DNA from: Streptococcus porcinus
Lineage (GTDB): Bacteria > Bacillota > Bacilli > Lactobacillales > Streptococcaceae
Assembly: GCF_900475415.1 (NCBI RefSeq)
Contig: NZ_LS483388.1
Location: forward strand, 730,001 to 794,000
Length of the DNA: 64,000 nt
Direction of reading: 5' to 3'
Every line of letters starts with the position of its first letter. Within the stretch, counting starts at the first letter, position 1. Below are positions 13,936-25,867 of this stretch, piece after piece. The translations under genes and the position numbers were made by a program. The notes below the pieces were generated by a model that was given only the letters and a program-made list of their open reading frames with translations, ran no database searches and was not told where the DNA came from.

Positions 13936-13955
13936 GCCGCATTTATAGCGGCTTA
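13933..13955 (+). other. Stem-loop at the endolysin stop codon
   Basis: TAAGCCGC and GCGGCTTA form an 8-bp stem with a 7-base loop; the stop codon is inside the stem. No T-run follows, so it is a poor intrinsic terminator and may mainly protect the 3' end of the lysis mRNA. Confidence 0.6.
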
Positions 13956-13957
13956 TA

Positions 13958-13966
13958 TGGTATAAT
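13958..13966 (+). promoter_or_regulatory. Extended -10 promoter for the toxin locus
   Basis: TGGTATAAT gives a TG-extended perfect -10. No good -35 is present, as is common for extended -10 promoters. A transcript starting near 13973 would cover the micro-ORF and toxin and end at the hairpin 14170-14204. Confidence 0.6.
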
Positions 13967-14019
13967 TTAATGGTAGAAAAGTGAAGACGGTGGCTCCTAA
14001 ATCCTGAAAGAAAGAGGTG

Positions 14020-14070
14020 ATGCCTATGGGCAATTCATCAAAATCTGACGGAAAGGAGGAGCACTTTTGA
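14020..14070 (+). CDS. 16-residue upstream micro-ORF overlapping the toxin start
   Basis: ATG 14020 lies behind AAAGAGGTG and encodes MPMGNSSKSDGKEEHF before TGA at 14068-14070. That stop overlaps the toxin TTG start (14067-14069), a layout suited to translational coupling. The toxin ribosome site AAGGAGG lies inside this ORF. I do not recognise the peptide. It may be only a translated leader. Confidence 0.5.
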   Translation: MPMGNSSKSDGKEEHF

Positions 14071-14171
14071 CTGAGTTTGAAGTTGTGCAAACCATCTTTG
14101 GTTTTGGTAGCTTTACCATTGCTTTGATTGGTTTGTGCTATAAAATATTCAGTGACAAAGGCAAAAAATAA
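14067..14171 (+). CDS. Putative holin-like toxin (Hol_Tox family, type I TA)
   Basis: TTG 14067, behind AAGGAGGAGCAC, gives 34 residues: a short acidic N-terminus (TEFEVV), one membrane segment (QTIFGFGSFTIALIGLCY) and a basic tail ending DKGKK. This is the plan of Hol_Tox/TxpA-like membrane toxins found at the end of phage lysis modules in streptococci and lactobacilli. The 3' end of the mRNA overlaps a convergent RNA with its own strong promoter (next entries), as in type I toxin-antitoxin pairs. It could instead act as a small accessory holin. The antisense layout favours the TA reading. Confidence 0.7.
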   Translation: MTEFEVVQTIFGFGSFTIALIGLCYKIFSDKGKK

Positions 14172-14279
14172 TCCGTCCCCACTTTTGCTCAGGTAGGACG
14201 GATTATTTTCGTTTAACAGAGCTACCGTCTTTTTAACGGTTCTATGTTGGAGTTGGTTTGCAGACCAGCTCCTTTTTCT
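14165..14279 (-). ncRNA. Convergent antisense RNA to the holin-like toxin (RatA-like antitoxin)
   Basis: A minus-strand promoter (14286-14313) would start an RNA near 14279. It would run about 115 nt through a 5' hairpin (GGAGCTGGT with ACCAACTCC, one wobble pair), a second small hairpin (ACCGT/ACGGT) and a terminal hairpin 14204-14170 followed by T-rich sequence on this strand. Its 3' end is complementary to the 3' end of the toxin mRNA, because both transcripts share the same bidirectional terminator. This matches the architecture of type I antitoxins such as RatA. The RNA itself is predicted, not observed. Confidence 0.65.
14170..14204. terminator. Bidirectional terminator between toxin mRNA and antisense RNA
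   Basis: AATCCGTCC pairs with GGACGGATT across a 17-base loop. ATTTTC follows on the plus strand and ATTTTTTGC on the minus strand, so it can end both transcripts. Confidence 0.8.
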
Positions 14280-14285
14280 ATATTC

Positions 14286-14313
14286 ATTATAACATACTGG
14301 CAATAATTTTCAA
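14286..14313 (-). promoter_or_regulatory. Promoter of the antisense RNA
   Basis: Reading the minus strand, TTGAAA (14313-14308), a 16-base spacer and a perfect TATAAT (14291-14286). The -10 is stronger than a chance match would suggest. No protein-coding gene lies downstream on this strand. Confidence 0.72.
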
Positions 14314-22932: not shown

Positions 22933-23589
22933 TTGCCAATACTTGAATTTAAAGACGTCTCATTTTCATCTGATGGGAAGGACATCTTAAAAAATCTTAG
23001 TTTTGCTATTGATGAGGGAGACTATGTATCGATTATAGGTCCTTCTGGTAGTGGGAAAAGCACTCTTTTGAAGCTAGCTAGTTATTTACAAAGTCCGACT
23101 AGCGGGGATATTATGTTTGAGGGTAAATCATTGGGGGCTTACAATCCAATAGAATTACGTCAGGCCCTTTCTTATTGTTTTCAAACTCCACATCTATTTG
23201 GTGAAAAAGTGAAAGATAATATTCAATTTCCCTACGAAATTAGACATTTACCTTTGGATCAGGCCCGTGTCAATAAACTTTTTGAACTATTTAAAATGGA
23301 TCTTTCGTATTTAGAACAGGATGTTAAAAAATTATCTGGAGGGGAAAAGCAGCGAATAGCTCTGATTCGACAATTGTTATTTGAACCAAAGGTTCTTTTA
23401 TTGGATGAAGTGACCTCAGCTTTGGATTCTGTTAATAAAGAAATAGTCGAAGAAGTTATTGAAAGGCTAAATAACAAGGGGGTTACTATTCTCTGGATTA
23501 CCCATGATACTAGTCAAAGTAAAAAATATGCTAATAAAATGATGACTATTGTAGATGGGAAACTAGAATCTATGGAGGTGATTAAATGA
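22933..23589 (+). CDS. ABC transporter ATP-binding protein, FetA/YbbL-like
   Basis: A TTG start 22933 behind AGAGAGGAG gives 218 residues. It has Walker [10 protein letters not shown] (near residue 37), Q-loop YCFQTP, signature LSGGEKQRIAL, Walker B VLLLDEVTSALD and H-loop ITHDTS. The size and the TPHLFGEKV segment fit the YbbL/FetA subgroup, and the partner permease is UPF0014/FetB. In Escherichia coli FetAB exports iron and protects against peroxide stress. The Per-like box upstream agrees with an oxidative-stress or metal role here, but the substrate is inferred. Confidence 0.85.
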   Translation: MPILEFKDVSFSSDGKDILKNLSFAIDEGDYVSIIGPSGSGKSTLLKLASYLQSPTSGDIMFEGKSLGAYNPIELRQALSYCFQTPHLFGEKVKDNIQFPYEIRHLPLDQARVNKLFELFKMDLSYLEQDVKKLSGGEKQRIALIRQLLFEPKVLLLDEVTSALDSVNKEIVEEVIERLNNKGVTILWITHDTSQSKKYANKMMTIVDGKLESMEVIK

Positions 23590-24359
23590 GTGGAGCAGAT
23601 AATATTTCCGTAACGTCTTTATTACTAGCATCATCTTTGGTTTTGATAACATTATTTTTTTCTTATTGGCAAAAATTGAAGTTAGAAAAAGAGATTATTG
23701 TAGGAGCAATTCGAGCAGTTATCCAGTTACTTATAGTTGGCTTTGTTCTTGATTATATCTTTGGGTACAAAAATCCTATTTTTACAGCTCTTTTGTTATT
23801 ATTTATGATTGTGAATGCTTCTTATAATGCAGCTAAGCGTGGAAAAGGAGTTGGTAATGCTTTTAAAATATCTTTTGTCGCTATTACTTTAGGTGCGAGT
23901 ATTACGCTATCAGTTTTAATTTTTTCAGGAATTTTAGAGTTTGTGCCTAATCAAATGATCCCTGTTGGGGGAATGATTATCAGTAATTCAATGGTTGCTA
24001 TTGGGTTATGTTATAAACAACTTTTAGATTCTTTTCGAGATAAACAAGAAGAAGTAGAAACCAAATTAGCACTTGGTGCTGATATCTTACCTGCTTCTAT
24101 TGATATTATCCGTGATGTTATTCGGACTGGCATGGTGCCAACAATTGATTCGGCTAAGACACTAGGTATCGTTTCTTTACCGGGAATGATGACAGGGTTA
24201 ATTCTAGCAGGAACTTCTCCTATACAAGCTGTGAAATATCAAATGATGGTTACTTTTATGTTACTAGCTACAACATCAATTGCTTCTTTTATTGCTTCTT
24301 ATCTGGCTTATAAAGGATTCTTTAATGACAAAAAACAATTAGTAGTTAAACAGTCATAG
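23586..24359 (+). CDS. ABC transporter permease, FetB/YbbM (UPF0014) family
   Basis: 257 residues with a four-base overlap (ATGA) to the ATPase gene, so translation is coupled. It has six or seven membrane spans; characteristic segments are AIRAVIQLLIVGFVLDYIF, VPVGG-like (PVGGMIISNSMVAIGL) and the cytoplasmic coupling region KLALGADILPASIDI followed by RTGMVPTIDSAKTLGIV with the LPGMMTG motif. This is the complete UPF0014 pattern. It forms the membrane half of the exporter. Confidence 0.88.
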   Translation: MSGADNISVTSLLLASSLVLITLFFSYWQKLKLEKEIIVGAIRAVIQLLIVGFVLDYIFGYKNPIFTALLLLFMIVNASYNAAKRGKGVGNAFKISFVAITLGASITLSVLIFSGILEFVPNQMIPVGGMIISNSMVAIGLCYKQLLDSFRDKQEEVETKLALGADILPASIDIIRDVIRTGMVPTIDSAKTLGIVSLPGMMTGLILAGTSPIQAVKYQMMVTFMLLATTSIASFIASYLAYKGFFNDKKQLVVKQS

Positions 24360-24425: not shown

Positions 24426-24454
24426 TTGACAATTCTTCTTATCTTAGCTATACT
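24426..24454 (+). promoter_or_regulatory. Strong promoter of the MFS transporter leader
   Basis: Consensus TTGACA (24426-24431), a 17-base spacer and TATACT (24449-24454). The start would be near 24461, giving a leader of about 180 nt. Confidence 0.85.
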
Positions 24455-24460
24455 GTTAAC

Positions 24461-24643
24461 AATTAAATACTGCTTTAACTATGTACCGTGAGACATAAAA
24501 GCACAAAGAAGAGATGGCAAATGCTACCCTCTTATTTTCTAGAGATTTTTTGACTCACGGCTACTGGCGGGGGTCTTTTTTGGCTTTTATCAGTATTCAA
24601 TTAATTAAGGTAGTCAGTGAGCTACTATTAAAGGGAGAAAGAA
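24461..24643 (+). promoter_or_regulatory. Structured 5' leader RNA, candidate switch (unassigned class)
   Basis: Helix A: CCGTGAG (24486-24492) with CTCACGG (24554-24560). Helix C: TACTG (24562-24566) with CAGTA (24591-24595). Helix B links their loops: ATAAAAGC (24495-24502) with GCTTTTAT (24583-24590), a kissing-loop or pseudoknot of 8 bp. A small hairpin AAGAG/CTCTT (24509-24533) lies inside A. The same CTCAC segment can instead join a terminator-like stem (GACTC 24552-24556 with GGGTC 24571-24575, one wobble, then six T) or pair with GTGAG (24617-24621) near the ribosome site. I see no match to known riboswitch consensus sequences that I remember. Confidence 0.6.
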
Positions 24644-25867
24644 ATGTCACAGATGTCACTAGACAGAAATAACAAAAGAGCCCTTGCGGCAGCTATTATA
24701 GCTTCAGGAACAGATGATTTAAACGTTATGTTTCTTGCGTTTTCAATGTCTTCAATTATTACCGAACTTGGCATAACAGGAGCACAAGGTGGTTGGATTG
24801 CAACAGTAACAAACTTAGGGATGCTACTTGGAGGCCTTATTTTTGGATTATTGGCTGATAAGTACCATAAGTTTAAAGTCTTTAAATGGACAGTATTGGT
24901 ATTCTCGATTGCGACAGGTCTCGTTTACTTTACCAAAAGTATTAACTATCTCTATCTGATGCGTTTTCTTGCTGGGATTGGTGTAGGTGGAGAATATGGT
25001 GTAGCTATAGCTATTATGGCAGGTATTGTCCCAGCAGAAAAAATGGGACGAATATCTTCTCTTAATGGAATTGCTGGGCAATTAGGCTCAATTTCCTCCG
25101 CACTATTAGCGGGTTGGTTAGCACCAAGTTTAGGGTGGAGAGGACTTTTCTTGTTTGGTTTAGCACCAATCTTGCTAGTCCTATGGATGATGTTCAGTAT
25201 TGATGATGACAAGATTTGGGATAAGGGTAGTAATGGAACAGAAGAAGCTAGTCAACCTGTTAAAATTAGTCAACTTTTTAAAAGTCCACATTTAGCAGGG
25301 CAAACCTTAGCATTAATGGTCATGACTACAGTTCAAATTGCTGGTTACTTTGGAATGATGAATTGGCTACCAACTATCATTCAGACTAATCTTGGGCTCT
25401 CTGTCAAAGACTCATCTTTATGGATGGTAGCGACAATCTTAGGAATGTGTCTGGGGATGGTAACCTTTGGTCATATTTTAGATAAGTTTGGCCCAAGACC
25501 AGTTTATTCGGCATTTCTAATAGCTTCATCGGTCTGCGTTTATCTCTTTCAATTTGCAAATTCAATGCCAGCCATGATAATTGGTGGGGCAGTAGTTGGT
25601 TTTTTCGTTAATGGTATGTTTGCAGGGTACGGTGCTATGATTACAAGACTTTACCCACACCACATTCGGTCAACTGCAAATAATGTCATACTTAATGTAG
25701 GTCGTGCTATTGGTGGTTTCTCGTCTGTCATCATTGGTAAAATTCTTGATATTTCAGGTATGGCCATGGTCATGATTTTCTTAGCCACCCTCTATATGAT
25801 TAGCTTTGGAGCGATGTTATCTATTAAAAATCTCCAGCCAAGTCTTTATAAGCAGTTATCAAAATAA
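24644..25867 (+). CDS. MFS transporter (aromatic acid:H+ symporter-like)
   Basis: 407 residues, ATG behind AAGGGAGAAAG. Twelve membrane segments form two six-helix halves joined by a loop near residue 195 (DDKIWDKGSNGTEE). The loop 2-3 motif GLLADKYHKFKVF, the GVGGEYGVAIAIMAG stretch in helix 4/5 and the second-half copy GHILDKFGPRPVYSAF are typical of the sugar/aromatic-acid branch of MFS. The substrate is unknown. The gene is single, with its own promoter, a long leader and a terminator, so expression is probably controlled through the leader. Confidence 0.85.
   Translation: MSQMSLDRNNKRALAAAIIASGTDDLNVMFLAFSMSSIITELGITGAQGGWIATVTNLGMLLGGLIFGLLADKYHKFKVFKWTVLVFSIATGLVYFTKSINYLYLMRFLAGIGVGGEYGVAIAIMAGIVPAEKMGRISSLNGIAGQLGSISSALLAGWLAPSLGWRGLFLFGLAPILLVLWMMFSIDDDKIWDKGSNGTEEASQPVKISQLFKSPHLAGQTLALMVMTTVQIAGYFGMMNWLPTIIQTNLGLSVKDSSLWMVATILGMCLGMVTFGHILDKFGPRPVYSAFLIASSVCVYLFQFANSMPAMIIGGAVVGFFVNGMFAGYGAMITRLYPHHIRSTANNVILNVGRAIGGFSSVIIGKILDISGMAMVMIFLATLYMISFGAMLSIKNLQPSLYKQLSK

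Follow-up and report, generated by a model that had tools for sequence, protein, structure and literature searches.

PyrR attenuation has been described in Streptococcus pneumoniae (accessible parts of PMC6212727 and PMC6296669), and the leaders of pyrFE, pyrKDb, pyrRB-carAB and uraA in that species (PMC6212727) are examples of the pyr attenuator, Rfam family RF00515. This is the system closest to the leader analysed here, which precedes the gene for a transporter of the major facilitator superfamily (MFS) in a window of 64,000 nucleotides of Streptococcus porcinus DNA. The window is the whole stretch that was analysed; coordinates are positions in it, and the promoter, leader elements and MFS gene are all on its forward strand. 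Judged against the accessible part of the published description, the two systems share the CNGNGA architecture of the binding loop, an alternative antiterminator and terminator, and a gene tied to pyrimidine supply. They differ in that the lower stem of the loop is GCUUU here and CCUU there, that the antiterminator here uses the hexaloop and 3' side of the first binding loop (BL1), and that the leader here falls below the Rfam gathering score and carries a second loop (BL2) at the ribosome-binding site.

A binding loop at a ribosome-binding site has a reported precedent: Fields and Switzer (2007, cited in PMC13328217) reportedly described that PyrR represses translation in Mycobacterium smegmatis from such a loop, the level of control being translation. 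BL2 resembles it in position. The difference is that the loop here follows a transcription attenuator or sits behind pyrF-pyrE, and is found in Lactobacillales.

The MFS is class 2.A.1 of the transporter classification (TC). Two described orotate transporters are relevant to the cargo that we propose below. OroP of Lactococcus lactis (TC 2.A.7.21.4; PMC12802215, accessible part) has the same substrate as that proposed here and also comes from lactic acid bacteria, but belongs to class 2.A.7, which is not that of the MFS. DctA takes up orotate in E. coli and Salmonella (PMC13328217, accessible part), and there too orotate bypasses the early steps of the pathway via PyrE; it is, however, a C4-dicarboxylate transporter of Gram-negative hosts. 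Neither regulation of this MFS family by PyrR nor orotate transport by an MFS protein came up in a literature search that lay largely outside subscription journals and included the accessible text of PMC3766115, PMC6212727, PMC6296669, PMC12802215, PMC6440147, PMC13328217, PMC11625349, PMC2700258, PMC12707516 and PMC10986495.

The leader and its first PyrR-type loop

The leader is a non-coding stretch of about 180 nt (24461-24643) in front of an open reading frame for 407 amino acids (24644-25867), as the original prediction had said. Its promoter, also correctly predicted, is of the sigma-70 type and near consensus (TTGACA-17-TATACT, 24426-24454, 11 of 12 matches in a consensus scan), and similar hexamers are present in the leader alignment. 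A DNA search of 197 genomes from the genus found the leader in 20, its own included, 5' of orthologues of the MFS gene. The stability of the whole leader is ordinary (z -0.93, folding against shuffles).

BL1 (24472-24502) was delineated with a model of canonical loops (R1, described below) and pair counts. It has a lower stem GCUUU/AAAGC, an internal loop AAC, an upper stem UAUGU/ACAUA and a hexaloop CCGUGA, with an A.G mismatch at the closing pair. In the window and in the orthologues, the loci being chosen by loop motif, it consists of a CNGNGA hexaloop on an upper stem, an internal loop containing UAA and a lower stem, in the same register as 14 canonical pyr loops. By motif it is found in 40 of the 91 MFS loci. 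In 28 distinct sequences (30 distinct picks minus L005 and L060) 94.2% of cells are paired and 3 of 11 pairs are compensatory, a number equalled in 237 of 500 shuffles; the covariation score of 0.294, against 0.207 when shuffled, is modest on its own. Taken alone, BL1 is barely more stable than its shuffles (z -1.53).

Ranked by E-value, RF00515 comes first among Rfam families for the leader of the window (26.2 bits, E 0.1), and misses its gathering score of 54 bits. Twenty of the 21 orthologous loci were searched, L018 and L021 being one and the same site. In 14 of them no Rfam family other than RF00515 matches the leader at E 1 or better, and its matches have 34.4-46.0 bits and cover positions 1-115 of 115. 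None of the 20 reaches the gathering score, and six of them, including the window's own leader (L001), show no match at E 1. The threshold of 54 bits is a curation cut-off and not a biological feature; the pyrF leader of this same genome is also below it (52.6 bits). RF00515 was found at E 0.01 or better in all 118 genomes searched, 104 being above the cut-off.

A strict motif identified one canonical loop in each of 31 fetched RF00515 loci, 18 of these loops being distinct, and R1 was made from the 14 canonical pyr loops of 31 nt, with L023, L033, L053 and L055 left out for length. Across the 2.03-Mb genome, where 150 of 1336 first-look candidates were scored, R1 reports three sites at E 10 or better: the pyrR leader (52.1 bits, a match by construction, as this loop is among the 14 training loops), the pyrF leader (33.8 bits) and BL1 (20.2 bits, E 2.7). 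In the window alone BL1 is the top of nine matches (E 0.086), the next having 15.9 bits and E 0.54. When 82 of the 91 MFS loci were searched at E 1, the 50 matches comprised 32 copies of BL1 in MFS leaders and 18 leaders of pyr genes; the window's own BL1 lay outside E 1 in this search. Another locus in this genome, L024, outscores the window's leader with RF00515 (28.4 bits) and was rejected as a probable chance match, R1 being silent there and a reading of its sequence giving no hexaloop stem. The genome encodes PyrR itself (NF003548, 300.8 bits against a cut-off of 218), and it is highly likely that PyrR binds BL1, which would then serve as an anti-antiterminator.

Downstream of BL1 lies an intrinsic terminator (24552-24581), GACUC...GGGUC followed by six U, which is the terminator-like stem of the original prediction. 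The stretch 24550-24582 folds with -10.1 kcal/mol (z -3.25 against shuffles), and in all 22 leaders folding gives a hairpin with a T-run behind it. A stricter scan for contiguous-stem terminators gave none at this site and none elsewhere in the window, and the aligned terminator columns carry no pairing signal, for which alignment gaps there are probably responsible. The predicted antiterminator joins the loop and 3' side of BL1 (5' arm, 24486-24492) to a 3' arm at 24554-24560, which is supported by pair counts and the fold and overlaps the 5' arm of the terminator; the stretch 24484-24560 is unusually stable (z -3.69, folding against shuffles). When the transcript was folded without the terminator 3' arm, the BL1 loop and 3' side paired with the terminator 5' arm in 21 of 22 leaders, the single miss being L127, where the rule picked another hairpin. 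This truncated-transcript folding replaced a first, strict rule that required one unbroken helix and found only 9 of 40. In controls that shuffled the sequence lying between BL1 and the final 45 nt, the terminator was obtained in 77 of 330 and both structures in 14 of 330. Folding predicts an alternation of antiterminator and terminator, as in PyrR attenuators.

The second loop at the ribosome-binding site

BL2 (24601-24631) has a lower stem UUAAU/AUUAA, a UAA bulge, an upper stem GGUAGU/GCUACU and a hexaloop CAGUGA, and the Shine-Dalgarno sequence AGGGAG (24632-24637) follows directly on its 3' arm. It was recognised by a rule, by covariation, and by a match in loop type with the leader upstream. 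The rule finds it in 73 of the 91 loci, with a hexaloop in 59 and a pentaloop CGNGA in 14, and finds none in 18; the 91 include near duplicates, that is, strains of one species. As background, 187 of 8683 windows taken at random satisfy the rule, as do 9 of 780 starts of other genes; one of the nine (L136) is the MFS gene's own hairpin.

The stems of BL2 covary clearly. The sequences were chosen by loop motif and distance to the start, not by their stems, and in the 42 distinct ones (47 distinct picks minus L078, L079, L081, L100 and L120) 95.7% of cells are paired and 9 of 11 pairs are compensatory, with a covariation score of 0.667 against 0.178 when shuffled and at most 0.173 when slid. T5, A7, C15, G17, G19 and A20 are invariant in these 42, of which only T5 and A7 are independent of selection by the hexaloop motif, and these two correspond to the U and A in the internal loop of canonical pyr loops. 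By itself BL2 is barely more stable than its shuffles (z -1.41), and its lower stem is missing from the minimum-energy fold. A model built on BL2 (R2) reports two sites in the whole genome, BL2 itself with 45.4 bits, by construction, and a site at genome position 1959125 with 28.8 bits; the latter was read as a plain hairpin without CNGNGA and rejected as a further BL2.

The loop type of BL2 follows that of the leader upstream. Among the 55 loci that have BL2 and a PyrR-type leader of either pyrF or the MFS gene, BL2 has a pentaloop in all 10 with a pentaloop leader (always that of pyrF), and a hexaloop in 41 of the 45 with a hexaloop leader (Fisher p 3e-8, not corrected for phylogeny). The exceptions are L081, L084, L087 and L098; L094, with a hexaloop leader and a pentaloop BL2 just outside the range of the rule, would be a fifth. 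The simplest cause of this concordance would be one reader for both sites, namely PyrR. It is likely, on this and the shared features of the loops, that PyrR binds BL2. That BL2 acts on translation is also rather probable: because it abuts the Shine-Dalgarno sequence and recurs in 73 of 91 loci, an added translational repression is suggested.

The ten pentaloop pyrF leaders have CGAGA or CGGGA, in loci mostly of Aerococcaceae (L078, L082, L088, L090, L093, L100, L101, L103, L106 and L108). The distance from these loops to the MFS gene downstream is about 1.5-1.6 kb, or 2.8 kb in L090. Nine of the ten were searched with R1, and none was reported at E 1.

The transporter and its proposed cargo

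The MFS protein has only remote MFS matches among solved structures. Of the curated subfamilies, aromatic acid:H+ symport (TIGR00895) comes nearest, with a score below the cut-off; orotate is an aromatic acid. The S. pseudoporcinus protein is 92% identical, and S. pyogenes, S. agalactiae and S. suis have homologues as well. Among the 2391 listed relatives, the best 120 carry no more specific name than 'MFS transporter', 'MFS family permease', 'major facilitator', 'sugar (and other) transporter' or 'hypothetical protein'.

In tblastn searches (E 1e-15), 40 of 79 named loci have pyrF and pyrE no more than 1.1 kb from the start of the MFS gene, 33 of them with the two genes upstream in the same orientation and 7 with them divergent, and in S. 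anginosus pyrB-carA-carB is directly upstream of the MFS gene, with carB adjacent. In the window itself, the genes just upstream (22933-24359) encode an ABC ATPase and a UPF0014/FetB-like permease (iron efflux family TIGR00245, below the cut-off); among the 21 leader loci with about 1.5 kb of flank, these neighbours occur in L001-L003 only. Homologues about 50% identical in Staphylococcus simulans (L128-L130) have neither BL1 nor BL2 by rule and no pyr neighbours in the flanking DNA examined, and possibly have a different substrate or control.

The genome to which the window belongs (G000) encodes, besides PyrR, PyrP, PyrF and PyrE; CarB, PyrC and PyrD were not found in it, nor was a PyrB over the cut-off, a weaker PyrB match being probably a related carbamoyltransferase. 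By these searches the bacterium seems to have no route of its own to orotate. CarB, PyrC and PyrE were searched for in six genomes. One of these (G050) is the same as G000 for PyrB, PyrD, CarB, PyrC and PyrE; another (G070) is without PyrB over the cut-off, CarB and PyrC and has PyrE and a PyrD homologue; and a third (G011) is without all five and has no MFS gene. Orotate import makes sense where PyrE and PyrF are kept without the steps that make orotate, and from the gene neighbours and this gap in the pathway the substrate is probably orotate. The MFS gene is present in 15 of 118 genomes of the genus, in 3 of the 4 without PyrB over the cut-off and in 12 of the 114 with PyrB. The gene also occurs outside genomes with the pathway gap, and most carriers may be able to make orotate themselves. 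In S. pneumoniae D39, a strain that may or may not carry the MFS gene, pyrR expression showed no observable response to orotic acid, according to the accessible part of PMC6212727.

Proposed mechanism and alternative explanations

From sequence comparison, we consider it very probable that the leader is a PyrR-dependent attenuator, that BL2 is a second PyrR site that would block translation, and that the gene encodes an orotate importer. When UMP is plentiful, PyrR with UMP would bind BL1 (24472-24502) in the nascent RNA and keep its loop and 3' side from 24554-24560, so that the terminator at 24552-24581 would form and transcription would stop. When UMP is low, the antiterminator would form first and transcription would continue. 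In transcripts that read through, PyrR with UMP would bind BL2 (24601-24631) and so block translation, the 3' arm of this loop lying right against the Shine-Dalgarno sequence. The MFS protein would import orotate, or less likely dihydroorotate or another pyrimidine precursor, and so feed PyrE and PyrF. As modelled, this three-state logic is that of the pyr attenuators.

The original prediction had instead proposed a kissing-loop RNA acting as a new kind of metabolite riboswitch, and this we consider very improbable. The three complementary pairs on which it was built do exist in this sequence, and the second of them (24562-24566/24591-24595) is also in the minimum-energy fold. Nothing in Rfam matches the leader at gathering scores, in keeping with the statement that it belonged to no known class, but with the thresholds relaxed the PyrR family comes out first by E-value, and searches at both levels led us to reject a known Rfam riboswitch as its identity. 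The covariation test that had been suggested for the three helices was made on an alignment of 22 leaders, in which the second helix is paired in 51.0% of cells and the 8-bp kissing helix (24495-24502/24583-24590) in 58.9%; both are at shuffle level, and no conserved ligand-pocket fold comes from them. The first hairpin (24486-24492/24554-24560) fares better, with 79.9% of cells paired against at most 46.2% when slid, though with no compensatory change, and its role would be that of the antiterminator described above. What had been overlooked is the pair of loops, BL1 and BL2, which in the same 22 leaders have 97.7% of cells paired and 7 of 22 pairs compensatory, the shuffle mean being 1.8. 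The CTCAC strand was said to have two alternative partners, one of them in a terminator-like stem; the partner near the ribosome site is, on reading the sequence, the GTGAG in the BL2 loop, and the same GTGAG is also in the BL1 loop. What survives of the original prediction is that the leader is structured, can pair in alternative ways, has a terminator and an element at the ribosome site, and controls the MFS gene according to a metabolite related to its cargo; the kissing-loop riboswitch does not survive. The leader is real and conserved, yet most likely no new metabolite riboswitch. A PyrR-type loop forms its conserved core, and RF00515 matches the leaders (as the only Rfam family at E 1 in 14 of 20 loci); the sensor is then most likely the PyrR protein with UMP and not the RNA itself.

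Two further alternatives accept PyrR attenuation through BL1. In one, BL2 is a hairpin at the ribosome-binding site read by another RNA-binding protein or an RNase, or acting by simple folding control, and it is true that R1 reports no BL2 position at E 1 in the 82 loci, that R2 finds none of the 31 canonical pyr loci at E 1, and that the lower stem is mostly UUAAU/AUUAA where canonical loops have CCUU/AAGG. This reading is nevertheless unlikely, given that BL2 shares with canonical loops the CNGNGA hexaloop, the internal-loop U and A and the 31-nt frame, that it mirrors the pentaloop change of the pyrF leaders, and that its gene neighbours are pyr genes. In the other, the PyrR switch is right and the transporter carries something else, such as dihydroorotate, uridine or an exported product. 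This is possible but doubtful. A protein without a close relative of solved structure leaves room for it, as do the 12 of 15 carriers in the genus that have PyrB over the cut-off, and the PyrD homologue in G070 fits import of dihydroorotate equally well. The frequent neighbour pyrE, however, acts on orotate, the nearest curated subfamily, though below cut-off, transports aromatic acids, and imported dihydroorotate would be useless in G000 and G050, in which no PyrD homologue was found.

If orotate import under PyrR control is correct, it would tell what a widespread transporter does (take up orotate) and what regulates it (PyrR with UMP), it would have PyrR acting on transcription and translation within one leader, and it would account for the retention of pyrF and pyrE in some streptococci that lack the orotate-forming steps. 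The pyr regulons may also be under-counted, because the Rfam cut-off excludes leaders of this kind. More broadly, we lean towards a picture in which one leader holds two PyrR loops, one to stop transcription and the other translation, and in which the pyrF leader and the loop at the ribosome site have co-evolved in their pentaloop form among Aerococcaceae and related groups. The arrangement would then be an old feature of Lactobacillales, guarding an unrecognised MFS family of orotate importers that lets species without carB, pyrB, pyrC and pyrD live on environmental orotate.

It is worth adding that the window contains a second RNA locus, at 13951-14289. Here a match to Rfam rli28 (84.2 bits, forward strand, 13951-14137) faces a match to the RatA antitoxin RNA (48.8 bits, just under the cut-off of 49, reverse strand, 14200-14289), and the two are probably a type I toxin-antitoxin pair.
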